The notes below the pieces were generated by a model, which was not told the DNA's origin, made no database searches, and saw only the letters and a list, made by a program, of their open reading frames with translations. Position numbers and translations under genes: made by a program. DNA of 64,000 nucleotides from Phycisphaerales bacterium (lineage in GTDB: Bacteria > Planctomycetota > Phycisphaerae > Phycisphaerales > UBA5793): positions 124,001 to 188,000 of the forward strand of contig JADZAS010000005.1 in NCBI GenBank assembly GCA_020852515.1, written 5' to 3'. This document shows, one piece after another, positions 4,768 to 57,351 of this stretch (its first letter is position 1; the number at the start of each line of letters is the position of its first letter).

Positions 4768-4940
4768 AATGTGAAGATAGGCCCGCAACGCCGCCGCAGC
4801 GAGGAAGCGGACGCATGAGGCATCAAGCCAGGGCATCAAGGCGGCATAACCGCACGTTTAGCCGCGAGCAGAAGGCTCGGCGCAGGGGAGCGCTGCGAAA
4901 AGCGCCCAAATCGCGCCCGCGCACCGCGCCACCCCGCGCC

Positions 4941-7496: not shown

Positions 7497-7515
7497 GACA
7501 ATCCTCCTCCACCCG

Positions 7516-7544
7516 AGGATACCGGAAATCGCAGCGCAACGCAA
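7516..7544 (-). promoter_or_regulatory. Probable sigma70-type promoter of SBBP copy 1
   Basis: On the minus strand, TTGCGT (7544-7539) and TATCCT (7521-7516) are separated by exactly 17 bp, with the start codon 20 bp after the -10. The same two hexamers at the same spacing precede SBBP copy 2 although the bases between and before them have diverged, which supports function. Confidence 0.5.
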
Positions 7545-7613
7545 GGGTCAAAACGCGAAGCCGCAAGCGGCGTGCGGCACACACAGCGAAAGTGGGCCTC
7601 TGAAGCCTGGTTT

Positions 7614-14543: not shown

Positions 14544-17051
14544 ATGCGCCACGCTTGCACTCGGGGTCTGGGTCTCGCACTGGTGTCTTCGCTTGCGCTG
14601 GCGGCGGGTGCGCTCGGGTTTCAGTCGCCTGCTGCTCAGCGGCTCAACCTCGGCCTGCGCGGGGTGTACTTCGTGCCCAACGAGGGGCAGTGGAGTGATG
14701 CCGGGGTGATCTACGGCTACCGCGCGCGCGGCCTGGACATCGCCTTCCGCGAGTCGTCGTTCACAATGCATCTGGCGCGGCAGATCAGCGATGCAGCGCC
14801 CACAACAAGCCGGGGCAAAGGCTCCGCGCCGCCCCGGATCGACAACATCAGCGGCGAACGTCTCCTGCTTGCCGATGACGAAATCCGGGGCGACGAGGAC
14901 TCTGCCCCGGCTTGGGAGCACCTCACCCTCGCCGTGACGTTTCCCGGCAGCAACGAGGTGCAGCCCGTCGCCGCGCAGCCGCAGGGCGCGAAGTTCAACT
15001 ACTTCGTCGGCGATGATGAATCGAAGTGGGCGAGCAACGTGCCATCGTTTGGCGAAGTGGTTTATCGCAACCTCTACGATGGCGTTGACCTGCACATCAC
15101 CGGCGCTGGCGCTCGCGGCTTCGCGTCTGAATCAGACGCCGACGGCGTACTCAAGTACGAATTCCACGTCGCCCCCGGCGCCGACTGGTCACAGATCCGC
15201 ATCCAGTACGACGGCATCGAGTCGCTCTGCATCGACGAGCCCGGCAACCTCCACATCGCGACCACCTTCGGCACACTCACCGACGCCGCGCCACTGGTGT
15301 GGCAACCCCGCAGCCCAGGCCGGGACAAAGGCTCCGCGCCGTCCCGGATTTCCCCATCCAACGACGACTCCACCATCCCCGCCCGCTTCGAACTCGTCAA
15401 CAACACGACATACACAATCACCCTCGACGCCACCGTCGACCCCACGCAAGAACTCATCATCGACCCGGATGTGGAGTGGTCGCGGTATCTCGGCGGCGAG
15501 TCGGTTGATGAGGGGCGTGGAGTTGCTGCGCGATCAGACGGCTCGGTCGTCGCCGTCGGCAGCACTGGTTCCGAAATCTTCGAAGGGCAGAACAACTCGA
15601 ATCATGGCGATTGGGATGCGTTTGTGGTAAGCGCCGATGGCGATGGTCGATTACTGTGGATGACGTTCATCGGCGGCAGCGGGCACGACGCTGGATTCGG
15701 CGCGTCGCTGGAGCCCGGCGGCGCCATCCTGCTCAGTGGTGAAACACAGTCGGCCGACTTTGCGCAACGCAACAACGAACTGCACGGCATCAGCGATGCG
15801 TTTCTTGCCCGCCTCGATGATGCGGGGAGCCTGCTGCGGATGACCTACGTCGGCGGCTCGAATGCCGAGTCCACCTATTCGCAGCCGGGTATCGACCGTC
15901 ATGGCTACATCGTCATCGCCGGCGTCACCGAGTCACCGGACATCGAAGGTCGGCTCAACGATCTGCACCCCGGCTCGTGGGATTCGTTCATCTGCCAACT
16001 CAGTCCCTCTCTCGAAACTCAATGGGCGCTCTACCTCGGCGGCACGGGAGGCGACTCCATCTTTGAGATGACCCTCGATGGCGAAGGCAGCGCATTGGCA
16101 ACTGGCGTCACCGGTTCCGTCGATTTTGACGGTCGCATCAATTCCTATCACGGAGACGGCGACCCCTTCGTCGTCAAAGTCGACCCCGAAGGTCAACTCC
16201 TCTGGATGACTTATCTCGGCGGCAGCGGATATGGAGACGAAGACGGCAACGGCATCGCTGTCGAGTCGGATGGCACGATCGTCGTGTGCGGAACGACGGA
16301 GTCGGATGATCTCGAAGGGGCCACCAATTCGAGACTCGGCTACCAGGACATCTACATCGCACGCCTCAAGCCAAACGGCACGGTCATCCGCAGCACCTAC
16401 ATCGGCGGCTCCCAGGGCGACTACGGCTATTTCCTGGCCCTCGATGCGCAGGGTAACGCGCTCATCACCGGCGAAACAAACTCCGATGACTTCATCGGGC
16501 GAAGAAACGGACTGCAATCCGGCTTCGCCATTCTCGCCAGCATCAACCGACTCGACGCAGTCAACTGGATGATCTACTGCGGCGGAAGTCAGGGCTGGGG
16601 AACCGCCGTGGCCGCCGGACCTGATGCCGCCTACGTCGTCGGCGGAGTGCGCGTGAGCGACCTGGAAGGGCGGCTTAATGCGTACGGCGGCAATGACGAT
16701 GGCTTCCTGCTCAAGTATGGTCCGCTCACCGTTCCCGATCTGTCGGTAGATTCGTCCTGTCCCGATGCCGGCCCGATACAACTCACCTGGTTCAACGCCA
16801 CTCCCAGCGCCCCCGCCGCGCTGCTCTTTGCCCGCAACTCCGGTTCATTCTCCATCCCCAACAACCGCCCGTGCCCGGGCACGATGCTCGGCCTCGGCGC
16901 CGAGCAACTCCAGGTCGCTTTCACCGGCAACTCCGACGCCAACGGCTCGCGCACACTCAACGCCACCATCGGCCCCAACCTCTGCGGCGGCTACCTCCAA
17001 CTCCTCGACCTCACCACCTGCACCACGAGCAACGTCGCGCGGATCGAGTGA
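14544..17051 (+). CDS. Secreted SBBP-repeat protein, copy 2
   Basis: A secreted protein of 835 residues, paralogue of the protein at 4941-7496. The ATG at 14544 follows the same GGAGGAGG site; the signal peptide (MRHACTRGLGLALVSS) differs from copy 1 by one residue in its first part. The N-terminal domain to about residue 300 is close to identical to copy 1. About seven SBBP repeats (WSRYLGGESVDEGRGVA, WMTFIGGSGHDAGFG, WMTYLGGSGYGDEDGNG and so on) are much more diverged, and the last 30 residues (LCGGYLQLLDLTTCTTSNV) match again almost exactly. This pattern suggests duplication followed by divergence of the centre or gene conversion of the ends. Three in-frame palindromes lie at 14810-14838, 14885-14910 and 15320-15347. 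The dtd gene begins 33 bp downstream. Confidence 0.85.
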   Translation: MRHACTRGLGLALVSSLALAAGALGFQSPAAQRLNLGLRGVYFVPNEGQWSDAGVIYGYRARGLDIAFRESSFTMHLARQISDAAPTTSRGKGSAPPRIDNISGERLLLADDEIRGDEDSAPAWEHLTLAVTFPGSNEVQPVAAQPQGAKFNYFVGDDESKWASNVPSFGEVVYRNLYDGVDLHITGAGARGFASESDADGVLKYEFHVAPGADWSQIRIQYDGIESLCIDEPGNLHIATTFGTLTDAAPLVWQPRSPGRDKGSAPSRISPSNDDSTIPARFELVNNTTYTITLDATVDPTQELIIDPDVEWSRYLGGESVDEGRGVAARSDGSVVAVGSTGSEIFEGQNNSNHGDWDAFVVSADGDGRLLWMTFIGGSGHDAGFGASLEPGGAILLSGETQSADFAQRNNELHGISDAFLARLDDAGSLLRMTYVGGSNAESTYSQPGIDRHGYIVIAGVTESPDIEGRLNDLHPGSWDSFICQLSPSLETQWALYLGGTGGDSIFEMTLDGEGSALATGVTGSVDFDGRINSYHGDGDPFVVKVDPEGQLLWMTYLGGSGYGDEDGNGIAVESDGTIVVCGTTESDDLEGATNSRLGYQDIYIARLKPNGTVIRSTYIGGSQGDYGYFLALDAQGNALITGETNSDDFIGRRNGLQSGFAILASINRLDAVNWMIYCGGSQGWGTAVAAGPDAAYVVGGVRVSDLEGRLNAYGGNDDGFLLKYGPLTVPDLSVDSSCPDAGPIQLTWFNATPSAPAALLFARNSGSFSIPNNRPCPGTMLGLGAEQLQVAFTGNSDANGSRTLNATIGPNLCGGYLQLLDLTTCTTSNVARIE
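14810..14838. repeat. In-frame palindrome, GKGSAP type
   Basis: Arms CCGGGGC / GCCCCGG around a loop with AAAGGCTCCGCG. Encodes SRGKGSAPPRI in SBBP copy 2 at the position matching 7203-7230 in copy 1. Confidence 0.65.
14885..14910. repeat. In-frame palindrome, GDEDSAPA type
   Basis: Perfect 7-bp arms CCGGGGC / GCCCCGG around the 12-base loop GACGAGGACTCT. Encodes RGDEDSAPAW. Confidence 0.65.
15320..15347. repeat. In-frame palindrome, DKGSAP type
   Basis: Perfect 7-bp arms CCGGGAC / GTCCCGG around the loop AAAGGCTCCGCGCC. Encodes GRDKGSAPSRI. Copy 1 carries the unrelated NGRDARS palindrome at the equivalent protein position. Confidence 0.75.
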
Positions 17052-17084
17052 GACTGCCACGGGCAGGGGTCATACGCTCACCGC

Positions 17085-42888: not shown

Positions 42889-44583
42889 CTACCGCCTCAG
42901 GTGAAACACATCATCCTGGATCTCCCGGTCGATGGTCGTGTTGCGGCGAATGATCGTCGCGAGCGTCTGCGTCTCGATGAACCGCGCCGCCTGCGGGCCG
43001 AGGTACGACTCGTACCAGAAACGATCCCCATCGCGCAGCCGCGTGAACTGGTCGGTGATCAGCATGAACAGGCACTGGCCGTAGATCGAGCCCTCGACGT
43101 GCGGCTCGGAGAGCAGGCCGACCCACGGGTCGATCCGGTCCACGTGGCCGTACGCCTCTTCCAGCCGCCGCACGATCTCAGGGTCGTCGGTGATCTCCTC
43201 GAACAACTGCACTTCCGCCAGACCCAAGCTGCGGCGCACGTGGTTGTAGCTCGCCACGCCGTGGTCGCGGCCTCGCTGCATGTTCAGCGAGACCAGGTCA
43301 AACCCGCCGGCGCCCGGAGGCCCGAAGAGCATGTTGCGCACGGGATCGATGATGTACGGATCGAGCGTCTGCGCCGGCCGCACGACCAGGCCGCGCAGCA
43401 GCGGCTCAATGCCCAGTTCCACGATCAGTTCAGGCCGAAAGAACGCTTCCTCAAGCGGCAGATTCCCCTCCGGAATCACGTGCCCGTTCTCGTCGAGCCG
43501 CAGCAGCACCGGCGAGAGCAGCGTGTGACCCATTCGCCACCCCGCCGTCGCAAATTCGTTCGCAATCGAAGGATTCACATCCGGCCGGTAGCCCTCGTAC
43601 GGCGGCAACGCGTTGGGCCCGAGGATCGCCGGCAGGAACTCGTTGTACGTGATCGCCTGAATCTCCGCGCCCACGATCGCCCGCGCATACAGATAGATCT
43701 TCTCGCCGCTCAGGTTCGGCCGCTCGGCACGAATGCGATCGGCCCAGTAGTTGTGCTCGCGCACGAACAGCGTGTGCATCGCCGTCAGCGCGCTCTGCTC
43801 GTTCACGCGAATGTCGCCGCCGACGAACATGGTCGGATCGTTCGGATCCGGAATGTTGGGGAACCCGTTGACGTTGTAGGGCAGGAAGTTGCCTTCGCTG
43901 GTCTTGAGTCGGCCCGTGCCGTCGAGCGTACGCAGCTCCTGCGCCCGCGCCTTGTCCGAACCGTACACCTGTGAGCCGTCGATGAACGACGTGATGTGAT
44001 TGATCTGCTGCCGCACGCCATCGACCATGCGATACCCCGAGCGGTCCAGCGGAATCACTTCCCGCCCCGTCCCGTGGGGATCAAACCACGGATCGCCCTG
44101 CGGCACCGGAATGTCGAAGCGCTCAGCGGGCTGGGCAATGGGTGTCTCAACCACGTCGTGGTCGATCCACTGGCCCCACTGCCAGATGAAGTCCGTCAGA
44201 CCCAGGTCGTTGGGCATGTCGCCGGGCTGGGAATTGACAATGTTGCTCACCACGCGCGGGCCGGGTCGATCCTGCCCGCCGGGCACGTTGCCCGCGCCGT
44301 CGCCGTACTCCGGCTCCATGAGGCGCAGCAGCGTGGTGCGGGCCGCGCCCCACTCGCCGTGCTCGGGGTTGTTCCACCAGCCGTCGATGCGACGAAACTC
44401 GCTGGGATACTGCGCCGGGCCCACCTGCAGATCAGGCGGCCGGCTCACCGGCGCCGGCGACTGCTGCGGCCGGTGCGTCGGCGAACGACCCACCCCCACG
44501 GGCGGCTTGACCGTCGCCACCGCAAATACGCACGCCGCACATCCCACGCTAACCGCAGCCGCACCAGTGAAAAGTCGGGACAT
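42889..44583 (-). CDS. Secreted animal-type heme peroxidase (peroxidasin-like)
   Basis: 564 residues from ATG 44583, which follows GAGGAGAG; the N-terminus is an export signal. The mature part is one heme-peroxidase domain: WQWGQWIDHD carries the distal His and the calcium/heme Asp, HITSFIDGSQVYGSDK, VREHNYWADRI, and FATAGWRMGHTLLSP holds the conserved Arg/Gly and proximal His. LNMQRGRDHGVASYNHVRR and MLITDQFTRLRDGDRFWY are further family marks. Such enzymes use peroxide to oxidise halides or phenols outside the cell. A strong terminator follows. Confidence 0.93.
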   Translation of the reverse strand: MSRLFTGAAAVSVGCAACVFAVATVKPPVGVGRSPTHRPQQSPAPVSRPPDLQVGPAQYPSEFRRIDGWWNNPEHGEWGAARTTLLRLMEPEYGDGAGNVPGGQDRPGPRVVSNIVNSQPGDMPNDLGLTDFIWQWGQWIDHDVVETPIAQPAERFDIPVPQGDPWFDPHGTGREVIPLDRSGYRMVDGVRQQINHITSFIDGSQVYGSDKARAQELRTLDGTGRLKTSEGNFLPYNVNGFPNIPDPNDPTMFVGGDIRVNEQSALTAMHTLFVREHNYWADRIRAERPNLSGEKIYLYARAIVGAEIQAITYNEFLPAILGPNALPPYEGYRPDVNPSIANEFATAGWRMGHTLLSPVLLRLDENGHVIPEGNLPLEEAFFRPELIVELGIEPLLRGLVVRPAQTLDPYIIDPVRNMLFGPPGAGGFDLVSLNMQRGRDHGVASYNHVRRSLGLAEVQLFEEITDDPEIVRRLEEAYGHVDRIDPWVGLLSEPHVEGSIYGQCLFMLITDQFTRLRDGDRFWYESYLGPQAARFIETQTLATIIRRNTTIDREIQDDVFHLRR

Positions 44584-44968
44584 ACTCTCTCCTCTGCTGA
44601 CAGAACTCCGCAAGGGTGGCGCGCAGCGCACACAGCACGCATCCGCAGAGGGGTCTCTTCGGACTGATCCCCATCGATATCCATCGGGGGCCCGCGCCAG
44701 ACGCGACGATTATACACGAACTCGCGCAGCCGCCCGGCCGCTGAAAGCAGGCTTTCGCCGATTTCGTCCTCCGCCGCCTCCGGGTCCTGCCGCTCGCTTC
44801 CCACCGCGTTTGCCCCCCGGCCTGCCAATTCTCCAATTTGAATTGTCCACCTCGGCCGCGCCCGGCGAGTTCTGGGTGCCGGGCGCTCGTGTGCATCGGG
44901 GCGTCCCGACAAAGCCCGGCCAAACCAACCGCTCCGGCCGTTGCCGAAGCGCAGCAAGGAGAAGACCA
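44584..44968. other. Divergent promoter region
   Basis: 385 bp between the peroxidase gene and the secreted protein gene at 44969, which are transcribed apart. Both ribosome-binding sites are at its ends. An AT-rich spot contains CAATTC...GAATTG (about 44826-44845), a small inverted repeat that could be an operator. I see no gene. Confidence 0.5.
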
Positions 44969-46469: not shown

Positions 46470-46925
46470 ATGGGCAAGGTTTCAATCTCGAGGTTCATCG
46501 CAGCGCCGCCCAAGCGCGTCTTCGACATCGCCGCCGACTTCGAGAACGCACCCCGGCGCATCTCCGCGATCAAGAGCGTCGAAATGCTCACGGGCGGCGA
46601 AGTGAAAAAGGGCACGCGCTTCCGCGAGACGCGCATCATGTTCGGCCGCGAGGCCACCGAAGAACTCGAAGTCACCGCCTACGACCCGCCCCACTCCTAC
46701 CAGGTCGGCTGCAACTCGTGCGGCTGCTGGATGGAAACGCGCTTCCGCTTCGAACCCGATGGCACCGGCACCAACCTCGTGATGGACCTCGCCTGGAAAC
46801 CGCTCACTCTCTTTGCCAAACTCGCCTCGCCACTGAGCGCGATCATGCTTAAGAAATGCGTCAAGGCCTTCGACCAGGACATCGACGAACTCAAGTACGC
46901 CGCCGAGCAGCCGGTCGAGAAGTAA
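46470..46925 (+). CDS. SRPBCC-superfamily protein (polyketide cyclase-like)
   Basis: 151 residues. The helix-grip fold is suggested by VSISRFIAAPPKRVFDIAADFENAPRRI at the start, GTRFRETRIMFGREATEELEVTAYDPPHSYQVG in the middle sheet and a long C-terminal helix (LSAIMLKKCVKAFDQDIDELKYAAE). These proteins bind hydrophobic ligands; the ligand here is unknown. It is followed by an intergenic repeat cluster rather than an operon partner. Confidence 0.8.
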   Translation: MGKVSISRFIAAPPKRVFDIAADFENAPRRISAIKSVEMLTGGEVKKGTRFRETRIMFGREATEELEVTAYDPPHSYQVGCNSCGCWMETRFRFEPDGTGTNLVMDLAWKPLTLFAKLASPLSAIMLKKCVKAFDQDIDELKYAAEQPVEK

Positions 46926-46931
46926 CCGAAT

Positions 46932-47130
46932 GTAGGTCAGGTGCAACCTGACACTTTCGCCTATCACCAGCCTTCGCCGAACCATCGCGCGATCGCACGA
47001 TCGAAGATTCTCCTCTTCGCCCCAGCGGGGCGCCATCACGTAGCCACGGGTGCAGCGCAGCACGCGCTCTCGCGTGCGCAGCGCAACCCGTGGAACGCCG
47101 GCAAACAAATCCCGAGCCCCGAAGGGGCGA
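46932..47130. repeat. Intergenic cluster of REP-like palindromes
   Basis: Four hairpins lie in succession: GTCAGGT-GCA-ACCTGAC (46936-46952), GCCCC-AG-CGGGGC (47020-47031), a long imperfect hairpin whose ends are CCACGGGT / ACCCGTGG (47044-47093) and whose centre is CACGCG-CTCT-CGCGTG, and GCCCC-GAA-GGGGC (47116-47128). The first and last types recur at 20461-20547. They lie directly before the zinc-ribbon gene array. Confidence 0.75.
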
Positions 47131-47177
47131 CAGAGTCCCCCACCCCGCCCACCGACCCTGCACGATACCATCACCCA

Positions 47178-47936
47178 ATGCCCCGCCCGCGCCCAACCTC
47201 CGCGCCCGGCCGCTTCATCAAACGAGTCGTCATCTGCCTTCTCTTCAGCGCCATTCTTCAATTCGCGGTCGCGGTCGCGCTCTGCGCTTTCTCGCGTTCA
47301 TGGGGAAGATCCAGACTGGGCGAAGAATTCCACTGCGGCGACGAGGCGACCTACTACCTTATCGTGGACACCAGCAAATCATTTGGTCGAGACATCCTGG
47401 TTGGCAACCTCTTCTCGTACAGCCCATTCGTTGCCTGGGGAGACGGGGGGTGGCTCGATCCAGAATCGTTGAAGTTCGAACGAAGTGAGGCCCCTGCAGG
47501 GATTCCTCTTTGGTCGCGATTCCGTCAGATCACCACAGGTGAGGCCGTTGATCACTACCCCAGCGTGTCCAGTTATACGCTCGCCGTCGAAATCGGGAGC
47601 GGCTGGCCGGCGCGCAGCGCCTCGTGCTTTCTCACCATGTCAGATGAACGCAATCCATTCGCCGTGCATGATGGCTTCGCCCTTGAAAGCCCGCAATTTG
47701 ACTCAGACCGCACGCCGTCCGTCATCCCGCTCAAGGTGCATTGGAACGGTGCTTTGATAAACACAATCCTGTACGCGCTGATCATGCTCATCCCCCTCGC
47801 ACTGCTCCCGGCAGCCCGCCGTCACCTCCGCCACCGGCGCGGCCGCTGCCCCGCCTGCAACTACGACCTCCGAGCCACCACCACCAGCGTCTGCCCCGAA
47901 TGCGGCGCGGCGATCACGCCACGCGCCGCGACGTAG
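47178..47936 (+). CDS. Zinc-ribbon membrane protein, array gene 1
   Basis: 252 residues from ATG 47178. Layout: N-terminal span (VVICLLFSAILQFAVAVALCAF), an ectodomain of about 150 residues, a second span (LINTILYALIMLIPLALLP), a basic patch and a cytoplasmic ribbon CxxC-x11-CxxC near the C-terminus, ending ITPRAAT. The ectodomain has DHYP...YTLAVEIGSGWPARSASCFL, shared with array genes 2 and 7. Stop TAG is followed after 9 bases by the next ATG. Function unknown. Confidence 0.75.
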   Translation: MPRPRPTSAPGRFIKRVVICLLFSAILQFAVAVALCAFSRSWGRSRLGEEFHCGDEATYYLIVDTSKSFGRDILVGNLFSYSPFVAWGDGGWLDPESLKFERSEAPAGIPLWSRFRQITTGEAVDHYPSVSSYTLAVEIGSGWPARSASCFLTMSDERNPFAVHDGFALESPQFDSDRTPSVIPLKVHWNGALINTILYALIMLIPLALLPAARRHLRHRRGRCPACNYDLRATTTSVCPECGAAITPRAAT

Positions 47937-47945
47937 GATTGATCG

Positions 47946-48734
47946 ATGCCCAGCCCGCGCCAATCCTCCGCGCTGCGCCGCCTCTTCAAACGACTCATCC
48001 TCTGCATCCTCCTCGGCGCCATACTTCAGTACGCTGTCGCGGCCGCCTTCGGCATGTTCACGTCATCCGGCAGGCGCGGGACAAGCTGGGAACTGAGAGT
48101 CGATCATTCCGGCGGCTTGGCCACACTTACCGTAACGCGCTACGCATCGCTTGGTCGCTTTGTGCTTTCGGGCCAGTTCTCTTTCCTTTCATCGCGGGGC
48201 ATGCCGGCAAACCCAAAGCATCCCGACTGGTCCTGGGGGAGATGGTGGCAACGCGAGCCAGTCATGGGCGACCCGTTCACGTTCATGGTTACTCAAAACC
48301 CGCCACCTGTGTGGTCCCGCATCGCCTCGATCCGCACCGACCGGCGTTTCGATTACTATCCGCAAACGGGCTGGGGCCCATGTCTTGAGGTGGCATCCGG
48401 CTGGCCGATGCAGAGCGCCTCCTACTTCTCAGTTCGCTCAATCATGTCGGGGGCATGCACCGTGCGCGAAGGGATATTCATTGGCAATGCACTCCATGAT
48501 CCTGGCAAAACCCCTCGTGCCATCCCGCTCCGCATCATCTGGCCCGGCGCCATCGCCAACACACTCATTTACGCTGCCGCCCTGCTCGTTCCGTTCACTG
48601 TGGTTCCATTCGCGCGCCGTCACCTCCGCCGCCGGCGCGGCCACTGCCCCGCCTGCAACTACGACCTCCGAGCCACCACCACCGGCGTCTGCCCCGAATG
48701 TGGCGCGGCGAACACGCCACGCGCCGCGCCATAG
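47946..48734 (+). CDS. Zinc-ribbon membrane protein, array gene 2
   Basis: 262 residues; same layout as gene 1 (span LILCILLGAILQYAVAAAFG, span IANTLIYAAALLVPFTVVP, C-terminal ribbon). The ectodomain phrase FDYYPQTGWGPCLEVASGWPMQSASYF groups it with genes 1 and 7. The 3' end of about 125 bp is nearly identical in DNA to gene 1, while the ectodomain is strongly diverged. Confidence 0.75.
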   Translation: MPSPRQSSALRRLFKRLILCILLGAILQYAVAAAFGMFTSSGRRGTSWELRVDHSGGLATLTVTRYASLGRFVLSGQFSFLSSRGMPANPKHPDWSWGRWWQREPVMGDPFTFMVTQNPPPVWSRIASIRTDRRFDYYPQTGWGPCLEVASGWPMQSASYFSVRSIMSGACTVREGIFIGNALHDPGKTPRAIPLRIIWPGAIANTLIYAAALLVPFTVVPFARRHLRRRRGHCPACNYDLRATTTGVCPECGAANTPRAAP

Positions 48735-48743
48735 GATCAAGCG

Positions 48744-49400
48744 ATGCCAACCCGCTGGCTCAACCGCCGACTCATCGCGAGAGCAAGCATCTTCCTCCTG
48801 CTCGGCGCGATCATCAACGTAGCCGTCGCGTGGGCGTGTGTGTATCCGGGCGCGGGCGGTCGCAGAGTTGGCTTGATCGACGATATCCACTCCGAGTTAC
48901 CGTGGTGGCAGAATCACGCACCACTTGAATGGAAGAGCAAGTACGGTTTTTCCGGAGAAGTTCTCGCGCCGGGGTTTGACGTGCAACTCCGCTATTCCGA
49001 CCCTTCGATCGATTGGGGCAAGACTCTCTACGGCTCAGTTCGAGCTGGCCTGCCCCTCAAGAGCATGAGGGGTCATCTTTGGTGCATCACCACGTACGAC
49101 GATGGGCCTGGGCGATTCCAGGACCGTGTCGAGCTTCATGCAGTCGGACTCTGGCGACTTGAATCGGAGCTGGACGTTGAAGATTCCCTGCTCTCTTCCC
49201 TGCCGCTTCGACCATTGTGGTGCGGCTTCCTGTTCAACTCAGCACTTTACGGCGGAGTGCTTTGGATCCTCGTGCTGGCCGCGCCGCGCAAGATCATCAC
49301 AAGGCGACGTCTCAAGCACGGCCGCTGCCCCAACTGCAACTACGACCTCCGAGCCACCGCCACCGGCGTCTGCCCCGAATGCGGTACACTCAGGAGTTGA
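48744..49400 (+). CDS. Zinc-ribbon membrane protein, array gene 3
   Basis: 218 residues. The first 35 (MPTRWLNRRLIARASIFLLL then GAIINVAVAW) are almost the same as in gene 6 and similar to the protein at 33059. The ectodomain is short and divergent; the second span is WCGFLFNSALYGGVLWILVLAAP. The ribbon (CPNCNYDLRATATGVCPECG) ends abruptly in TLRS, without the ITPRAAT tail. The next gene is 62 bp away. Confidence 0.75.
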   Translation: MPTRWLNRRLIARASIFLLLGAIINVAVAWACVYPGAGGRRVGLIDDIHSELPWWQNHAPLEWKSKYGFSGEVLAPGFDVQLRYSDPSIDWGKTLYGSVRAGLPLKSMRGHLWCITTYDDGPGRFQDRVELHAVGLWRLESELDVEDSLLSSLPLRPLWCGFLFNSALYGGVLWILVLAAPRKIITRRRLKHGRCPNCNYDLRATATGVCPECGTLRS

Positions 49401-49462
49401 CGCGAAGCCAGTTCACGCTGGCCTGGATTCGAGTGCGAACACGCAGATTGCGGATTGCCACG

Positions 49463-49993
49463 ATGGGCAAATGGAAGAAGACATTGAATCGATTGGTGCA
49501 GATGAGCCTGTTCTGGAAGTCGATGCTGACGGGCGCACTCGCTGCACTGCTCTGCCTGCTTGCGTCCGCTTTGATCAGCTCATCCTCTCTCAGCGAGTTG
49601 CTGGCCATCTTTGTCATTCTCCCGGCTGTAGCGATGGGCCTGGGAGTCATGTGCGCGCTGGTGCTGTACCCACTCGTGAAACTCTGCCTGCAGCGAAAGG
49701 CGCCTTTGCACGCCACGTTCTGTGCGTTCATGCCGATCCTGGCGTCGGCCGCCCTGTCTGGTCTCTTTCTGAAGCCGACGGGCACACTTGACCACATTCC
49801 GGCCGCAGTTGTGGCCACTGCGCTGGCGGCGATTCTGATCTGCGTCGTCTGTGCGCTCTCGCTTCCAAACAGCGCTCCGGTCGGAACCCGTCCGCATTGC
49901 AAGACCTGCGGCTATGACCTCCACGCCAACACCACCGGCGTCTGCCCCGAATGCGGCGCGGCAATAGACGCGGGCGGCGACAAGGCGAAGTGA
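49463..49993 (+). CDS. Zinc-ribbon membrane protein, array gene 4 (four spans)
   Basis: 176 residues from ATG 49463; the longer upstream frame overlaps gene 3 and is not supported. Unlike its neighbours it has four spans (about residues 20-42, 45-68, 85-105, 112-135) and almost no ectodomain. The C-terminal ribbon is CKTCGYDLHANTTGVCPECG. It is the most divergent array member, yet its ribbon DNA still matches the others. Confidence 0.7.
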   Translation: MGKWKKTLNRLVQMSLFWKSMLTGALAALLCLLASALISSSSLSELLAIFVILPAVAMGLGVMCALVLYPLVKLCLQRKAPLHATFCAFMPILASAALSGLFLKPTGTLDHIPAAVVATALAAILICVVCALSLPNSAPVGTRPHCKTCGYDLHANTTGVCPECGAAIDAGGDKAK

Positions 49994-49994
49994 T

Positions 49995-50774
49995 GTGAAG
50001 CCCTCTCAAACTCAATCCCGGTGCCGCTCGATCCTGACAACCCTCATCTGGTCACTCCCGCTGCTGCTTGTAACGAATGCATACTGGTCGTGGCGGTTTT
50101 CGCAGTACTTTCCAACCTCCTACGAAGAGCAGTGGTGGGAGTTTCTGATCACGTATCCATCCGATCCGTTCGGATATCTCGCCGCAGACGACCAGTACAG
50201 CGTCACCTACATCGTTCCATGGAAGACGAAGGTGGATTATCCGTGGCTCTCGCGCTTTGACACAGTAACCGGGCCGGAGCGCACTACGCCAGAACAACGC
50301 GAGCTATGGCCTCAGTTCTTTGAGCCGCAGCCGGATGCAGCGCCAAGCTGGGTCAAACCCGAGCGGCTCCGCAATGCGCATCGGCTCGCCGCAGGCGAGT
50401 TCGAAGTCGAGATGTTCACGGCAACAGGCTGGCCCGTCAGGCTGCTCTGGTGCAGGTGGAAGCGAGACCAATCCGGTCAGGCGGCTGACCGCTCGACGGC
50501 CATTGTCCTGAACGAGCCCGGCGGTCAGGAAGTCGCCTCCGCTGCCAGCGTTCTCCCCTTCCGTCCCGTCTGGACCGGCCAACTGATCTACGGGTCATTC
50601 TGGTTCGCCGTCGTCGCGCTGCTCCGCACGTCCTGGTGGGTACTTCGTCGCGGCTGGCGCGATCAACGCGCACGACGAGGCCGCTGCACCTTCTGCAATT
50701 ACGATCTGCGCGGCAACACCACCGGCGTCTGCCCCGAATGCGGCGCGGCGATCACGCCACGCGAGACGCCATAG
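49995..50774 (+). CDS. Zinc-ribbon membrane protein, array gene 5
   Basis: 259 residues from GTG 49995, one base after the previous stop. N-terminal span SILTTLIWSLPLLLVTNAYWSW; ectodomain of about 165 residues with FEVEMFTATGWPVRLLW; second span GQLIYGSFWFAVVALLRTSW; ribbon CTFCNYDLRGNTTGVCPECG and tail ITPRETP. It pairs with gene 9 (LLLLTNVLWSIWA; GFPFRMLWH) as a subfamily. Confidence 0.75.
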   Translation: MKPSQTQSRCRSILTTLIWSLPLLLVTNAYWSWRFSQYFPTSYEEQWWEFLITYPSDPFGYLAADDQYSVTYIVPWKTKVDYPWLSRFDTVTGPERTTPEQRELWPQFFEPQPDAAPSWVKPERLRNAHRLAAGEFEVEMFTATGWPVRLLWCRWKRDQSGQAADRSTAIVLNEPGGQEVASAASVLPFRPVWTGQLIYGSFWFAVVALLRTSWWVLRRGWRDQRARRGRCTFCNYDLRGNTTGVCPECGAAITPRETP

Positions 50775-50783
50775 GATCAAGCG

Positions 50784-51614
50784 ATGCCAACCCGCTGGCT
50801 CAACCGCCGACTCATCGCGCGAGCATGCATCTTCATGCTGCTCGGCGTGATCATCAACCTGGCCGTCGCGTGGGGACTGGCAATCGGACTCGACTTTCGT
50901 CGTGCGATGGGTGAGCTTCCTCCGGAGGTTCAGGAAGACTACTACCGAGACATTGACAACTCCTACTTCCTGCTCATGCGAGAAGAGGTCGATGTTCCTC
51001 CCTCTGATCGGTTTCCGGGCATTGTCATTGTGCGATGGCGCCGCACAGGAGCTGAGCGTGTCACCGTATCATCTCTGTACGTAACCAGCGGAATGCCGCC
51101 CGAACCAAATCCCCGGACGCCCGAAGACCTTCTTTCGCCCTGGGCGCAGCCGGTTCTCCAAGTTCACGATGTCAGAACTCAAGCCGTTCCGAATACGGGC
51201 CAGGAATGGCACTACTGGGACAGCATCGCGGATGCGCGCGGATGGCCCATGCTTTGCCTCATGGGCGGGGTGCGCCGACCGATGCCCGGCGCATACGTAT
51301 ACGACGCGAATCGGCGGCGCATCATCCTGACGGAGCAACGCATCGCGATCATCCCGCTCAACATGCCCGATGGAAGGTACCGGACCGACGAGTTCCGGTG
51401 GCTCCCACTGCGCCCCATCTGGCCCGGTTTTGCGTTCAACACGATGTTATATGCAACGGCAACGTGGCTCCTGTTCGCCCTGCCGACCTTCCAGCGCAGA
51501 AGATGGCGAACCGCAAGGGGCCGCTGCCCGACCTGCAACTACGACCTCCGAGCCACCACCACCGGCGTCTGCCCCGAATGCGGCGCGGCGATCACACCGC
51601 GCGCCGCGACGTAG
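50784..51614 (+). CDS. Zinc-ribbon membrane protein, array gene 6
   Basis: 276 residues. The N-terminus nearly repeats gene 3 (MPTRWLNRRLIARACIFMLL) but the ectodomain is unrelated by eye and about 60 residues longer, with ADARGWPMLCLMGG. The second span is WPGFAFNTMLYATATWLLFALP, close to that of the protein at 33059. Ribbon and ITPRAAT tail are standard. Confidence 0.75.
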   Translation: MPTRWLNRRLIARACIFMLLGVIINLAVAWGLAIGLDFRRAMGELPPEVQEDYYRDIDNSYFLLMREEVDVPPSDRFPGIVIVRWRRTGAERVTVSSLYVTSGMPPEPNPRTPEDLLSPWAQPVLQVHDVRTQAVPNTGQEWHYWDSIADARGWPMLCLMGGVRRPMPGAYVYDANRRRIILTEQRIAIIPLNMPDGRYRTDEFRWLPLRPIWPGFAFNTMLYATATWLLFALPTFQRRRWRTARGRCPTCNYDLRATTTGVCPECGAAITPRAAT

Positions 51615-51623
51615 GATCAACCG

Positions 51624-52397
51624 ATGTCGCACGCTCAGCCATCGTCACCTTTGCGCAGCAGGACGAGGCGACTCGCCATTTGCCTCGCGTCCGGGGCGGT
51701 GCTGCAGCATCTCGTCGCGTGCGGATTCTCCCTGCAGACATCGCAGGATCCGACTACCGACGCATGGGTGCTGAAGCTACGGGAGCCGGTGCGGCACTCG
51801 CGAGTCCTTGTCATCCGGGGTCGTTCAACAGGCCGAGATTCGCTCTTAGCCGATTTCTGGCGTTCACGCTCTGATCCTGCCGATTCCGTAGACGATTCGA
51901 GGCCGGACTGGAGCTCGGCTGAGTGGCGAAGTGATGAAGATCTCGTCTCAACCAGATCCATGCCTCCCGCGTGGTCGAGGTTCACTCACATCTCCACCGA
52001 CCCGAACTTTGATTACTATCCGAATGCATCCTCGTGGGGATGGTGTGTCGAGGTCGCTTCTGGATGGCCGATGCGGAGCGCCTCGTACTTTGCAGGTGAG
52101 TCGCTCGGCGGTGGACCTCTTCAAGTTCGCGACGGGATCGTCGTTCCGCACGCGGGCAACGGCAATCGAATATCACGCGCCCTTCCGCTGGCTATCTACT
52201 GGCCAGGCGCGATCGTCAACACTCTCATCTACGCCGCGGTCCTGCTCGCGCTGGCCACCCTGGTCCGGCTGAGTCGTCAACGCCTTCGCGTCCGACGCGG
52301 CCACTGCCCCGCCTGCAACTACGACCTCCGAGCCACCACCACCGGCGTCTGCCCGGAATGCGGCGCGGTCATTTATTCGCTGTCGTCGGTTGCATGA
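51624..52397 (+). CDS. Zinc-ribbon membrane protein, array gene 7
   Basis: 257 residues. N-terminal span LAICLASGAVLQHLVACGF, ectodomain phrase FDYYPNASSWGWCVEVASGWPMRSASYF (as in genes 1 and 2), second span IVNTLIYAAVLLALATLV, ribbon CPACNYDLRATTTGVCPECG. The tail after the ribbon is AVIYSLSSVA, so the 3' consensus is interrupted just after the ribbon, and the next gene is 36 bp away instead of 9. Confidence 0.75.
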   Translation: MSHAQPSSPLRSRTRRLAICLASGAVLQHLVACGFSLQTSQDPTTDAWVLKLREPVRHSRVLVIRGRSTGRDSLLADFWRSRSDPADSVDDSRPDWSSAEWRSDEDLVSTRSMPPAWSRFTHISTDPNFDYYPNASSWGWCVEVASGWPMRSASYFAGESLGGGPLQVRDGIVVPHAGNGNRISRALPLAIYWPGAIVNTLIYAAVLLALATLVRLSRQRLRVRRGHCPACNYDLRATTTGVCPECGAVIYSLSSVA

Positions 52398-52433
52398 TGT
52401 TGTCGAAGCGAGGAGGCTCGTACACTGGTACAG

Positions 52434-53204
52434 ATGCACACGCACTGGCAACGACGCAGCCCCAAGATCTCGCCCATCTACCGATGTACGGCTTGGGCGC
52501 TCGCGCCACTTTGGGCGTGGGCGTTGGTCGCACTCGCCCTCTTTGTCTATCTGGTCTTCCCCGAATGCGCATGGCTATTGAAGAATCCGCTCGACGGATA
52601 CTCGGTCACAACGTCCGGCCGTCGGTTCGATGCTGATACACAGGATTCATACTGGCTGAAGCTCGACCTGTATGCAGGTCCGCCCGGGCACAACTGGTAC
52701 CAGCATCATAAAGCATCGTTTTATCTGGTGTATCGGCCGGGTCAGAGGAACCTGGCGCTGGATGCTCCAATCGGACCTGTCCACAAAGTGGTCGGCTACG
52801 ATGAATCGTCACAGCGCGTATGGTACATCGACGCAGACACCCATGAAGAAAGCTCCGTCAGCGGGGTGTGGGCCGGCTCGCGCGGACTGCCAATCAAATG
52901 GCAACCGGGAGGTCGGGGATACACACTGGAAGCCCGTGCGGGGAGTTTCCCGACCGCCGATCTCGCAAGTGACAAGCCCACAATCCTCTGGACGGACATG
53001 ATTGGGTGGTTCTCACTGCAGGCACTCTACGTTGCGGTTGCGTTTGCGGTGCTCACGCTCGCACGGCGGCATGTTCTCTCTACGGTGCGGGCTATCCGTC
53101 AACAGACCCGCCACTGCCCCACCTGCAACTACGACCTCCGAGCCACCACCACCGGCGTCTGCCCCGAATGCGGCGCGGCGATCACGCCGCGCGCCGCGAC
53201 GTAG
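52434..53204 (+). CDS. Zinc-ribbon membrane protein, array gene 8
   Basis: 256 residues. N-terminal span APLWAWALVALALFVYLVF, an ectodomain of about 160 residues with no GWP-type phrase (GVWAGSRGLPIKWQPGG in that place), second span FSLQALYVAVAFAVLTLARR, ribbon CPTCNYDLRATTTGVCPECG and ITPRAAT tail. The ectodomain matches no other array member by eye. Confidence 0.75.
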   Translation: MHTHWQRRSPKISPIYRCTAWALAPLWAWALVALALFVYLVFPECAWLLKNPLDGYSVTTSGRRFDADTQDSYWLKLDLYAGPPGHNWYQHHKASFYLVYRPGQRNLALDAPIGPVHKVVGYDESSQRVWYIDADTHEESSVSGVWAGSRGLPIKWQPGGRGYTLEARAGSFPTADLASDKPTILWTDMIGWFSLQALYVAVAFAVLTLARRHVLSTVRAIRQQTRHCPTCNYDLRATTTGVCPECGAAITPRAAT

Positions 53205-53213
53205 GATCACGCG

Positions 53214-53933
53214 ATGACCGCTTCGCTCCCGTCATTGCTGCGCCGGCGAATCTCGTCCACAATGCTGTGGACGCTGAGCCTTCTGCTGCTCACAAACGTT
53301 CTCTGGTCCATCTGGGCCGCAACGTCTTGCGATTCTCCATTCGCTGGCACTCGATCGAGAATCAGTTTCGCGCCAGTGGACGATAACAAAAGCTGTTTTG
53401 CCGAGGTCTTCGCTTCCACCACAAAGTCGTTCCATGAAGTGTATCTGTCCCCCGCCGATTCTGATGGTTCGCTCGCGCGGCGTGAACGTACGGTTAGCGG
53501 CACCGCGCCACTGTGGCTGCGAAGAGCGCTGAGCGGACAACGGATGCACGAGGCGTCACCCGACGCGATGTGGGAGTTCTCATCGGTCGGATTCCCGTTC
53601 CGCATGCTGTGGCACGCCGTTCAGCTACCGCATGGATACGCGCTGACAGGGTTCGGAAGTGGCGTCAGTCCGCGCAACGACAGCAGCCTCATGCCGCATA
53701 CGGGGATCACGGTGAGTAAGTCCGGCCGTGGCGCCTCAAGTGATGTCGTCTTGCCCATCCGACCAATTCTCGCTGGCCAAGTGTTCTACGCCGTGTTCTG
53801 GTTCGGTTTGCTCCTGATGGCGTCGTTTGTCCATCGGCGCGTGCGAATCTGGCGCGGCCGCTGCCCCACCTGCAACTACGACCTCCGAGCCACCACCACC
53901 GGCACCTGCCCCGAATGCGGCGCGGACGCGTAG
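53214..53933 (+). CDS. Zinc-ribbon membrane protein, array gene 9
   Basis: 239 residues. N-terminal span MLWTLSLLLLTNVLWSIWAA, ectodomain with WEFSSVGFPFRMLWHAVQL, second span GQVFYAVFWFGLLLMASFV, ribbon CPTCNYDLRATTTGTCPECG and a truncated tail ADA. It belongs with gene 5. It ends the array; a fragment of its 3' end recurs at 54111. Confidence 0.75.
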   Translation: MTASLPSLLRRRISSTMLWTLSLLLLTNVLWSIWAATSCDSPFAGTRSRISFAPVDDNKSCFAEVFASTTKSFHEVYLSPADSDGSLARRERTVSGTAPLWLRRALSGQRMHEASPDAMWEFSSVGFPFRMLWHAVQLPHGYALTGFGSGVSPRNDSSLMPHTGITVSKSGRGASSDVVLPIRPILAGQVFYAVFWFGLLLMASFVHRRVRIWRGRCPTCNYDLRATTTGTCPECGADA

Positions 53934-54374
53934 GTCCGGATCGCTGCTCGACTTCCTCTTCGTGTCCTCTCGGTGCTCTCCGTGACTCCGTGGTGAAGTG
54001 CTCGCCACCCGTTCGCGCAGTCGCGGCGGTGCTGCAAAACGAACGCGCCGCGCATCGACCCGCCAAGCGCCGGGCCTGCGCACAGCCTTGTCCCGACCTA
54101 CCGCCCGTCACACCACCGGCACCTGCCCCGAATGCGGCGCGCACGCGTAGGTCGGGACCGCTGCTCAACTTCCTCTTCGTGTCCTCTTCGTGCTCTCCGT
54201 GACTCCGTGGTGAAGCGTTCGCCACCCGTTTGCGCCCAGCCCCATCGACGTGGCCCCGGATTTCCATGATTCTGCCGCGCCGCCGCCGCATGCGCATCCG
54301 GCTCAGTGCGGCAGGCGCTTCACGCGCGTATTGTCCCCGATTGCCGCAGCCGCAGGTTTGCACCGGAGGCCACG
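53934..54374. other. Intergenic region after the array
   Basis: About 440 bp holding the two copies of the 125-bp duplication and simple-repeat arms of the CTCTTCGTG/CTCCGTG type. I see no intact gene before the hydrolase at 54375. Confidence 0.6.
54111..54235 (+). pseudogene. Duplicated 3' end of array gene 9
   Basis: 125 bp that repeat 53894-54018 with roughly ten differences: the last half of the ribbon (ACCTGCCCCGAATGCGGCGC), the stop region and about 80 bp of downstream simple-repeat sequence (CTTCCTCTTCGTGTCCTC...CCGTGACTCCGTGGTGAAG). No start or membrane part precedes it, so it is a remnant. Confidence 0.8.
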
Positions 54375-55694
54375 ATGTCGCCCCGCCCGACCAGCCGCCT
54401 TGTCCGCAGTCTCATCGCCCTGCTTGCGATGGCGCTGCTCGCCGTGATCATGTCCGCCGCCCGGGCCCAGAGCCCCCTGCCGCGAGACGAACCGCCACCG
54501 ACCGGCGACGATGGCGACCTGACGCCTGGCACGCTCGACCTCCCGCCGCGCACCGGCGCGTACCGCATCACCTTCACGCAGCGCCACCCCGGCAGCGCCA
54601 TCAGCCGCATCAAGGCCCGCATGCGCTACGCCACCACCGAGCCGGCGCCCGAATACGACATCGAGGATGAATCCTTCGAGGTGTATGTGCCGTCGGATTA
54701 CGACCCGGCCCGCGCGTACGGCCTCATCGTCTGGTCGAGTCCGAGCGAATCCGCAGCCGCGCCGCCGCAATGGCTGCCCGTGCTCGATCGGCGCGATTTC
54801 ATCTGGGTCGGCGCCAACGGAGCCGGCAACGAGCGAATCGGGTGGTACCGCTTCGGCCTCGCCCTCGACGCCGCACATAACATGCGGCAGACATATAACA
54901 TCGACCCGCTGCGCCTCTACATCGCGGGCATGTCGGGCGGGGGCCGCATCGCCAGCCGCCTTGGCGTGGCCTACGCCGACGAGTTTGCCGGCGCGTTCAT
55001 GATCGTCGGCTGCGACTTCTATCGCCGCACGCCCGTGCCCGACCAGCCGGGCAAGGTGTACATCGAGCGCTACCAGCCGCCGCCGGGCCCCGTTCTCGCC
55101 AGGGCGGTGCGCGACAACCGCTACGTCCTGCTCACCGGCAGCGAAGACTTCAACCGCACCGAGACGGCGACGATCTACGAGCACGGCTTCGTCAAGGAGC
55201 GTTTCGCGCACGCGACGTATCTCGAAGTGCCGGACATGGGTCACACGCTGCCCGACGCCGAGTGGTTCGACAAAGGACTCGAGGCGCTCGATGCGCCGCT
55301 GGCCGAGCGCCGCGCCGCCGAGGCGGAGGCAATGGAGAAGATCGAGCGCGAGGCGGCCGATGCGCTGGTGCTGGCGCTGGAGAAGTTCGATGCCGACGCC
55401 GTCGCGGGCTACGAACTGCTCGAGGCCGTGGCCGATCGCTTCGCGCAGACCGCTGCCGGCCGCACGGCGCGGCTCAAGGCCGCGCAGTGGGCCGCCGACC
55501 CGGCCAACAAGGCCGCGCTCGACGCCGCCCGCGTGCGCGACCAGGCCCGGCAATTGCTCTCGATGGTGGACAACTACATCAAGGCCGGCCGCCCCGACCT
55601 CGCGCGCGAGAAGCTCAAGCAGGTCATCGCACTCGTCCCCGACACCGACCTGGCCCGCGAGGCCGCCCAGCGGCTTGAGGCACTGAAGAAGTAG
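54375..55694 (+). CDS. Secreted alpha/beta hydrolase (esterase-like) with helical C-terminal extension
   Basis: 439 residues from ATG 54375, signal peptide ending near SAARAQS. Residues of about 90-320 form an alpha/beta hydrolase: FEVYVPSDYDPARAYGLIVW (strand and oxyanion region), YIAGMSGGGRIASRL (nucleophile Ser), VLLTGSEDFN (likely acid region) and VPDMGHTLPD (catalytic His). The last 120 residues are Ala/Glu-rich helices resembling TPR-like repeats (EAMEKIEREAADALVLALEKFDADAVAGYELLEAV, GRPDLAREKLKQVIALVPDTDLAREAAQRL). It resembles PHB-depolymerase/feruloyl-esterase-like enzymes; the substrate is unknown. Confidence 0.8.
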   Translation: MSPRPTSRLVRSLIALLAMALLAVIMSAARAQSPLPRDEPPPTGDDGDLTPGTLDLPPRTGAYRITFTQRHPGSAISRIKARMRYATTEPAPEYDIEDESFEVYVPSDYDPARAYGLIVWSSPSESAAAPPQWLPVLDRRDFIWVGANGAGNERIGWYRFGLALDAAHNMRQTYNIDPLRLYIAGMSGGGRIASRLGVAYADEFAGAFMIVGCDFYRRTPVPDQPGKVYIERYQPPPGPVLARAVRDNRYVLLTGSEDFNRTETATIYEHGFVKERFAHATYLEVPDMGHTLPDAEWFDKGLEALDAPLAERRAAEAEAMEKIEREAADALVLALEKFDADAVAGYELLEAVADRFAQTAAGRTARLKAAQWAADPANKAALDAARVRDQARQLLSMVDNYIKAGRPDLAREKLKQVIALVPDTDLAREAAQRLEALKK

Positions 55695-55879: not shown

Positions 55880-56407
55880 CTATTGCTCCACCTTCGTTGC
55901 CGGCTGCTTTGGAATCTTGCGCAGCATCCCGATGGCGCTCCAGATCGCCGCAACGCCCATAACAATGACATCATCGAAGCCCACGCCGGCGACCGCGGGA
56001 ATCTGGTTGAGCAGCCATCCCGACCAGCCGCCCAGCGCCACCGACAGCAGCACGAGAAGCAGCAGCACCTCTTGGCGCTGCCGCATCACCGGGCTCGGCC
56101 AGCCGTTCTCGACCGCCTGCTTCTCGCGCAAGCGGGCCGCGATGCGAATCGTCGCCAGCAGCGCCACAGGCACAGCCGCGGCGACAAGTTCCCAGCCCAC
56201 CCACCGCATGAGTGTCCACGTTCCCAAGCCATACCAGAACGTGTACCACGCCGTCGCAAAGATAAAGATGACCGCGAGAATCCAAAGCGGCGGGCCGCTC
56301 ATCACCTGCTCGCGCACGAGGATGACGGGCTCGCCTGTTTCCGGATCAACCAGGCGAAACTCCTGGCTCGGCCCGCGCACGCTGGAGCGGTTGCCGCGCC
56401 ACCTCAT
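55880..56407 (-). CDS. Membrane protein of unknown function
   Basis: 175 residues starting in an ATGA overlap with the two-ribbon protein gene, so the two are co-translated. A polar N-terminus (RLVDPETGEPVILVREQVMSG) is followed by four hydrophobic segments (about 38-56, 66-86, 112-132, 140-160). No family recognised. The coupling suggests it works with the ribbon protein in the membrane. Confidence 0.65.
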   Translation of the reverse strand: MRWRGNRSSVRGPSQEFRLVDPETGEPVILVREQVMSGPPLWILAVIFIFATAWYTFWYGLGTWTLMRWVGWELVAAAVPVALLATIRIAARLREKQAVENGWPSPVMRQRQEVLLLLVLLSVALGGWSGWLLNQIPAVAGVGFDDVIVMGVAAIWSAIGMLRKIPKQPATKVEQ

Positions 56408-57351
56408 ATTGCATCCACTGCCGCGTTCACGGCTGTCTCTTCGATGGCGATCTGATGTTCAATGCGCCGCAGATCCTTATAGAGCCAGTAGATCATGTTC
56501 CAGTACATAACGATCGCGATGATCGGCCCGATGCCCACGCAGAGGATTCCCACGGTCATCAGCAGCGGCCCCAGCCACATGAAGCGTCTGGCCCGCTCGT
56601 GCACGGTGCGATCAGGCACGCGCCGCGCGATCCAGCGCAGATAGATCATCGAAGCAAAGAACTGCACCGCCATCACTGCCAGCGCCGCCATCGCCGTCGC
56701 GACCTCGATCCACCCCATCGCCTGATTCGGCGTCGCGCCCGGCAACATCTGCACCACGAAATCGCCCATGGCGTAGATCGCGCCGAACACCAGCGCCCAG
56801 CGCAGCACCTTGCGCGACGTTGCGCCGTCATCGCGGCCGCTGTACGCCGGATCGAGCGCGCTGAGCAACCACCAGCCGTAGAGCGAGCCGAATTCGACCA
56901 CGAGTCCGGCGATGCTCATCGCGAGATCAACGGCCGGTGTGGCCAACGGCGCCGCACCAGCCAGCACCGCCGTCAATATAATGCCCAGCAGCAATACGAA
57001 CTGCACGGCGATCGACGCCAGCACCATCCATGCCCCCCGCCGCAGCGATCGAACATAATCAAGCGAGCAGCAGCCCAGCAGGTCGCCGCGCAGCGACTTG
57101 CTGATCGGCGTGCCGCACTCCGGACACGCGCCGCCCTCGCGCAGCCCGCGCAGCGCATAGCCGCACTGAATGCAGAACGCATCATCGACACTGGGTAGCC
57201 CGATCGCATCGCTCACCGCCGCATGACAATCGGGGCACGAATCACCAACCTTCAATCCGAGCAGACTCCGCCCGCACCGCACGCATTCGATCGCCTCGAC
57301 GACCACGTCGTTGACCGTTCCGACAATCGGCGGCGCGACAGCTTCGTTCAT
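56404..57351 (-). CDS. Membrane protein with two N-terminal zinc ribbons
   Basis: 315 residues, paralogue of the protein at 36768. Ribbons CVRCGRSLLG...SCPDC (about 23-45) and CIQCGYALRG...ACPEC (about 60-80) precede five or six spans (VLASIAVQFVLLLGIILTAVLAG, MSIAGLVVEFGSLYGWWLLSAL and others) and a cytoplasmic end with EHQIAIEETAVNAAVDAI. Here a partner membrane gene follows in an ATGA overlap; the paralogue has none. Confidence 0.75.
   Translation of the reverse strand: MNEAVAPPIVGTVNDVVVEAIECVRCGRSLLGLKVGDSCPDCHAAVSDAIGLPSVDDAFCIQCGYALRGLREGGACPECGTPISKSLRGDLLGCCSLDYVRSLRRGAWMVLASIAVQFVLLLGIILTAVLAGAAPLATPAVDLAMSIAGLVVEFGSLYGWWLLSALDPAYSGRDDGATSRKVLRWALVFGAIYAMGDFVVQMLPGATPNQAMGWIEVATAMAALAVMAVQFFASMIYLRWIARRVPDRTVHERARRFMWLGPLLMTVGILCVGIGPIIAIVMYWNMIYWLYKDLRRIEHQIAIEETAVNAAVDAI

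Follow-up and report, generated by a model that had tools for sequence, protein, structure and literature searches.

A Tandem Array of Zinc-Ribbon Membrane Protein Genes in Phycisphaerae, Probably Recombining at Shared Joints

The DNA analyzed here, a stretch of 64,000 nucleotides (hereafter, the window), comes from contig 5 of the 4.7-Mb draft genome of a Phycisphaerales bacterium (G000). Nine consecutive genes of the forward strand, g1 to g9, fill its positions 47178–53933. Taken as a whole, the evidence is best explained by a tandem array of a fast-turning family of Phycisphaerae inner-membrane proteins, and it is probable that the genes of this family recombine at the joints that neighboring copies share. 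The coordinates of the open reading frames were confirmed, as was the protein layout proposed in an earlier reading of the letters alone (the sequence-only reading). According to hydropathy analysis and the model of the g2 protein, one span is followed by an ectodomain, a second transmembrane (TM) segment, a basic patch, and a zinc ribbon; the exception is g4, which has several spans and lacks a large ectodomain. Each array protein ends in the motif C-x2-C-x-YDL-...-CPECG, and the ribbon sequence in the array is CPxCNYDLRATTTGVCPECG. The congeners used for comparison are metagenome-assembled genomes of Phycisphaerales.

Results

Direct repeats of 77 nt with 66–100% identity span the 3′ ends of all nine genes. 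In the tails of seven of them (g1, g2, g3, g6, g7, g8, and g9; the core tails), the same residue was encoded by the identical codon in 387 of 411 cases (94%), whereas a silent identity of 44% would be expected if local codons were drawn at random. In the bodies of the listed window pairs, silent identity was about 20–54%, with a residue identity of 21–44%. The identity of the 3′ ends is thus well above that expected from chance and above that from codon bias. The tails even have in common CGA, an arginine codon little used here (15% of Arg). The sequence-only reading had described the 3′ ends as nearly identical, including silent sites; this proved right for the seven core tails but not for g4 and g5, whose tails are clearly less alike (63–87% silent identity with the others). 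Normal silent divergence of the 3′ ends, which the same reading had named as a contrary outcome, was not observed.

The head of the following gene also belongs to the constant part, since the head DNA of g3 and g6 is common: their first 30 codons are alike (83/90 nt; 22/23 in the silent comparison), and their bodies are not alike in DNA. The joint composed of the g2 ribbon tail, the TAGGATCAAGCG spacer, and the g3 head (48633–48834, forward strand) and the joint composed of the g5 ribbon tail, the same spacer, and the g6 head (50673–50874, forward strand) form a 202-nt repeat with 88% identity. Five of the eight gaps between array genes, at junctions 1/2, 2/3, 5/6, 6/7, and 8/9, are 9 nt long; these spacers begin with GAT directly behind the TAG stop codon, so that the stop and a Shine–Dalgarno-like TAGGAT overlap. 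Joints of about 100–230 nt match at 74–91% in many places of four congeners where the bodies do not. In addition, an orphan ribbon tail (TTGTCPECGAHA-stop, 54111–54150) with array-end sequence (together 54111–54235, forward strand; 93% identical to 53894–54018) was found 3′ of g9, beyond the array limits given by the sequence-only reading. Its CPECGAHA ending is that still present on the last gene of the array in the congener G004, and the orphan tail marks the remnant of a lost last gene after g9.

The same module was found with different ends in two pairs of genes, namely, in the core of k6 and u28a and in the body of u28b and u23a. The g3-type genes k6 (G004) and u28a (congener G001) have 2 mismatches per 443 nt in the core (coding positions 69–511) but differ at 11 of the 69 nt preceding it and 13 of the 142 nt that follow (24/211 in total; Fisher p 1e-10 for the core against the rest of the gene). 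The core sits on different heads and tails, and the surroundings are not alignable outside the gene. Elsewhere, long alignments between G004 and G001 are mostly 73–82% identical (two at 85–88%), and the synonymous divergence (dS) of flank genes is 0.76–0.96 where computable. The near-identity of the core despite the 73–82% baseline indicates that this ectodomain core crossed species lines recently. The second pair, u28b and u23a of G001, is 97% identical from the tail of the preceding gene through the whole body; mismatches amount to 20 of 722 nt in the body versus 31 of 88 nt in the ribbon (p 1e-19), with the break at the ribbon start. One of these two genes has the array-type tail; the tail of the other, RGANHAVCPECGEAR, is of a type found in further arrays.

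Two flank genes, both on the forward strand, served as synteny anchors. The left one (46470–46925), of the polyketide cyclase/SRPBCC type (Pfam PF10604), shows 91% amino acid identity in G004 and 59% in G001. The right one (54306–55694; 462 aa), which has no Pfam match and is esterase-like by eye, shows 87% and 68%, respectively. The syntenic arrays beside these flanks vary in the number, identity, and order of their genes. Behind the left flank gene of G004 come six array genes and the array-end sequence, and the right flank gene begins another contig; close orthologues of the window array are only those of g5 (84% aa) and g3 (79%), with g5 preceding g3, opposite to the window order, and the first array gene, of class 1, shares only 36% identity with g1. 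An array starting with the g1 orthologue (body 84–85% aa, 90% nt) adjoins the right flank gene in G001, and the g3 orthologue lies in another array on another contig. The other window genes have no gene-length DNA match above 69% in four congeners. The comparison of the locus among relatives, suggested as a check in the sequence-only reading, hence revealed array turnover and chimeras in two congeners; the orthologues are neither complete nor in order, unlike the single-copy, ordered set that the same reading had named as a contrary outcome. The repeated duplication with recombination or gene conversion at constant ends proposed in that reading gains support from the silent identity of the tails, the array turnover, and the congener mosaics.

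As for the individual genes, g1 (47178–47936, 252 aa) belongs to class 1 (TM-ectodomain-TM-ribbon), together with g2 (47946–48734, 262 aa), whose structure was modeled, and g7 (51624–52397, 257 aa); the g1 orthologue of G001 lies at L094:1511–2269. The orthologues of g3 (48744–49400, 218 aa) are k6 and u28a, the pair sharing the ectodomain core, and its head partner is g6 (50784–51614, 276 aa). The multi-span g4 (49463–49993, 176 aa; best start ATG 49463) has a divergent ribbon. The gene g5 (49995–50774, 259 aa; best start GTG 49995) has the orthologue k2 in G004 (L099:5241–6023) and a distant relative in g9 (53214–53933, 239 aa), and the most divergent ectodomain is that of g8 (52434–53204, 256 aa).

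Several other elements were noted in the window. A dispersed repeat of about 115–130 nt (GCCACGGGTGCAGCG...) lies just upstream of g1 (47007–47139); its copies occur in many places of G003 and G004, several of them in tandem at L099:3981–4302. A short dispersed repeat near CACCACGGAGTCACGGAG (54063–54105) has many matches, reverse or direct, in all four congeners. A repeat family with partly inverted copies (4935–5247, 6523–7403, 12235–12394, 14642–15497, and 16756–17059) has many matches in G001 and G004. On the reverse strand, positions 42892–44631 encode a full-length haem peroxidase of the animal type (PF03098, E 1.6e-155), conserved in the corresponding neighborhood of G004 and G001.

The ratio of nonsynonymous to synonymous divergence (dN/dS) was 0.21–0.46 in the ortholog bodies, never reaching 0.5 in any that allowed its computation, and 0.16–0.34 in the flank genes. 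The ortholog bodies appear to be constrained, mildly relaxed at most, and their dN/dS gives no sign of antigen-like positive selection. Judging by these ratios, module exchange and old divergence, and not visible positive selection, are the probable sources of the diversity. The antigen-like or receptor-like diversification suggested in the sequence-only reading gains no support here: the nine frames are complete, the ortholog bodies are under purifying selection, and there is no sign of a single expression site with silent donors. Silent-cassette antigenic variation of the pilS/vls type likewise seems inapplicable: the reading frame is complete in all nine copies, most of which are preceded by their own Shine–Dalgarno-like spacer. 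An integron cassette array is disfavored as well, the 9-nt gaps at five of eight junctions standing against attC sites of some 50–150 nt; an integrase was not searched for.

Whole-body comparison groups g1, g2, and g7 (32–43% body identity) and g5 and g9 (24%), and g3 and g6 group by the head and the C-terminal part. In seven genes (g1, g2, g3, g5, g6, g7, and g9), the motifs G-[WFL]-P and [IL]-P-[LIF] ... G precede the second span, and most ectodomains share a GWP ... PLRPxWPG core, with P-[LIF] ... W-x-G before the second span in most of them; g8 shares less, and g4 is different. Of the earlier description of the ectodomains as diverged or unrelated, the divergence was confirmed, and the shared motif core in seven genes contradicts the unrelatedness.

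The fold was tested for one ectodomain class only. The g2 model (predicted local distance difference test, pLDDT, 83; predicted template modeling score, pTM, 0.76) contains a TM helix at residues 6–36, a beta-rich ectodomain at 43–194, and a TM helix from residue 199; for the g5 class, AlphaFold2 gave a pLDDT of 53 from five sequences. Foldseek searches of PDB and viral models with the g2 model gave nothing below E 0.001 (best E 0.078, RseB), and VIA-align gave no Z of 5 or more (at most 3.7, to half-barrel proteins), a known fold being still possible. RseB, VtrC, VioE, LolA, and ToxS recur among these weak matches; several of them are periplasmic sensors or lipid carriers. The array domain resembles these half-barrels in being a beta-rich exported domain, but at such Z values and with no sequence match, any relationship would be tentative.

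According to the Pfam analysis, all nine proteins fall below every curated cut-off (best 19.8 bits versus 27.3 for DZR), and no array protein exceeds a curated cut-off of NCBIfam; Pfam, NCBIfam, and PHROGs yielded weak zinc-ribbon or unknown-family matches only. A PDB sequence search with g7 found nothing credible, PADLOC anti-phage models gave no match up to E 0.1, no relative was found in viral contigs, and defence, toxin, and phage families gave no useful match to the array proteins. A nearby gene of the opposite strand (56404–57348) encodes a different ribbon protein, whose double zinc ribbon passes the Pfam threshold (DZR, 30 bits).

A genome-wide search for the family, also suggested in the sequence-only reading, gave 113 ribbon-tail matches in the source genome, read in part, with roughly 20 places having two or more within 2 kb; the ribbon tail is therefore not special to the window locus. 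Family members were found in 32 of 41 relatives and in 57 of 150 genomes of the class Phycisphaerae, many matching only in the last span and ribbon. Nearly all occurrences of the strict tail form fall within the order; a phylum-wide sample of 149 genomes had it in 7.

Similar genes were observed at other loci. The complete distant chromosome CP070827 has an array (L080:8324–14045) coding for some eight short membrane proteins that carry YNLTGNVSGVCPECG ribbons. In G019, two ribbon genes 3.9 kb apart (L150:3155–4021 and 7025–7780) are 100% identical over all compared positions, apparently reflecting a very recent duplication or conversion. The G001 array-end genes L091:314–985, L097:314–1015, and L095:8336–9133 have different bodies with a common ...SGAV[VA]-stop ending and a common downstream sequence (CCGAGG...GGCCACGCGAT).

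Discussion

These sequence comparisons lend good support to recombination at the shared heads and tails, and other explanations of the pattern fare less well. Ordinary tandem duplication with divergence, which would require strong purifying selection on the ribbon but no exchange, is improbable. The ribbon protein is indeed conserved class-wide, the bodies are under purifying selection, and the distant array L080 of CP070827, used as a control, shows exactly such a pattern: its ribbons are alike in protein, and their silent identity is near the codon-usage expectation. This same control shows that the ribbon motif does not force DNA identity, whereas the window tails reach 94% silent identity against the expected 44% and the spacers and heads are common in DNA as well. 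The two mosaics, which break sharply inside genes, already contradict plain duplication.

Slightly less probable still is that the tail is kept at the DNA level as a signal (recombination site, processing hairpin, or translational coupling element) and not by exchange. The silent identity of the core tails, 90–94% even between genomes where flank genes show 41–82%, would agree with such a signal, as would the GC-rich complementary arms near several gene ends. However, RNA folding of five joints was no better than that of dinucleotide shuffles (z -0.5 to 1.6), and array-type tail DNA is missing from the working relative u23a and from L080. The least probable explanation is an assembly artefact, with collapsed or mis-joined repeats mimicking chimeras: although the three close genomes are drafts assembled from metagenomes, with several contigs of G001 and G004 terminating in or near arrays, the k6/u28a breaks lie inside single genes with heads and tails of different types, the two genes come from separate projects, similar arrays occur in other genomes, including a complete chromosome, and silent-site identity is independent of contig joins.

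Four points weigh against recombination at the joints or what is built upon it. First, core tails compared within versus between three genomes gave 0.077 versus 0.088 (p 0.064), so that slow divergence or a constraint at the DNA level may account for some of the tail constancy; for all tails, the values were 0.127 versus 0.149 (p 0.037). Second, the two clearest mosaics are in congeners, outside the window array. Third, the three close genomes are all metagenome-assembled and in draft state, with some contigs ending near arrays. Fourth, the function discussed below is drawn from the architecture and weak structural matches. A V/I/A signature at a single position had hinted at strict species-specific homogenization of the tails, but the core tails showed no significant effect of this kind; since the tails are about equally alike between and within the three genomes, such homogenization is not claimed. 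The likeness of tails between genomes fits cross-species exchange.

The mode of change has a known counterpart. In the domain movement (DOMO) of HsdS, the Type I restriction specificity subunit, a variable region lies between sequences x and y; recombination in these flanks carries the module from gene to gene and from locus to locus, with changes in their number (Furuta et al. 2011, PMC3077401). The arrays are similar in that a variable module lies between shared heads, spacers, and tails and is found with different flanks. They differ in that the variable module is the exported domain of a membrane protein, the constant end is a zinc ribbon, the tandem arrays comprise up to nine complete genes, and no restriction genes are involved. 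With its TM-ectodomain-TM-ribbon layout and no restriction-family match, the system works like DOMO but is no HsdS. Reports on concerted evolution of tandem arrays by gene conversion (trypanosome arrays, PMC1855330; prokaryotic cases, PMC6053082) describe paralogues kept alike in DNA by exchange, a feature shared here; unlike in those cases, only the ends are alike, the middle is very diverse, and the within-genome likeness of tails is not significantly above that between genomes. The four-cysteine C-terminal ribbon recalls the Pfam zinc-ribbon families (DZR PF12773, DUF7837, and others), which have no model of their own for the YDL...CPECG ribbon with this architecture. Among the papers searched, none joined names beginning with Phycisphaer with zinc ribbon. 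The opinion of the sequence-only reading that no system with this layout had been described thus requires division: the mode of change is known from HsdS DOMO, and its carrier is an undescribed membrane family.

A possible mechanism can be outlined. The protein would begin with a short, positively charged cytoplasmic head and cross the membrane twice, with a beta-rich exported domain between the two spans; a basic patch and a cytoplasmic zinc ribbon would follow the second. A topology with the N-terminus in, the ectodomain out, and the C-terminus in is suggested by the positive patches and the model. The array is presumably co-expressed as an operon, and the ribbon may bind zinc and dock a common cytoplasmic partner. 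The joint DNA (ribbon tail, stop/Shine–Dalgarno spacer, and next head), common to copies, arrays, and species, would permit homologous recombination by unequal crossing-over, gene conversion, and uptake of DNA from relatives, presumably by means of recombination enzymes. Such events would add, delete, and shuffle genes and could replace either the ectodomain core or the ribbon tail without the remainder of the gene.

The beta-rich g2 domain and its weak RseB/LolA-type matches favor, at low confidence, a sensor- or receptor-like set; we tentatively suggest that varied ectodomains may bind varied ligands, possibly lipid-like, so that the array would amount to a collection of interchangeable sensors or receptors. 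More speculatively still, the arrays might be a between-species sensor repertoire, with the joint kept as a homology handle for plugging ectodomains acquired from other Phycisphaerae onto a constant signaling end. If true, this would be a bacterial analogue of receptor-gene shuffling.

Known carriers of variable-module recombination between constant ends are restriction specificity subunits and toxins. The array described here adds a large uncharacterized membrane family of a poorly studied class, the ectodomains of which have moved across species. The exchange gives a concrete handle on the role of abundant hypothetical genes and offers exported domains that are naturally interchangeable on one constant inner end.

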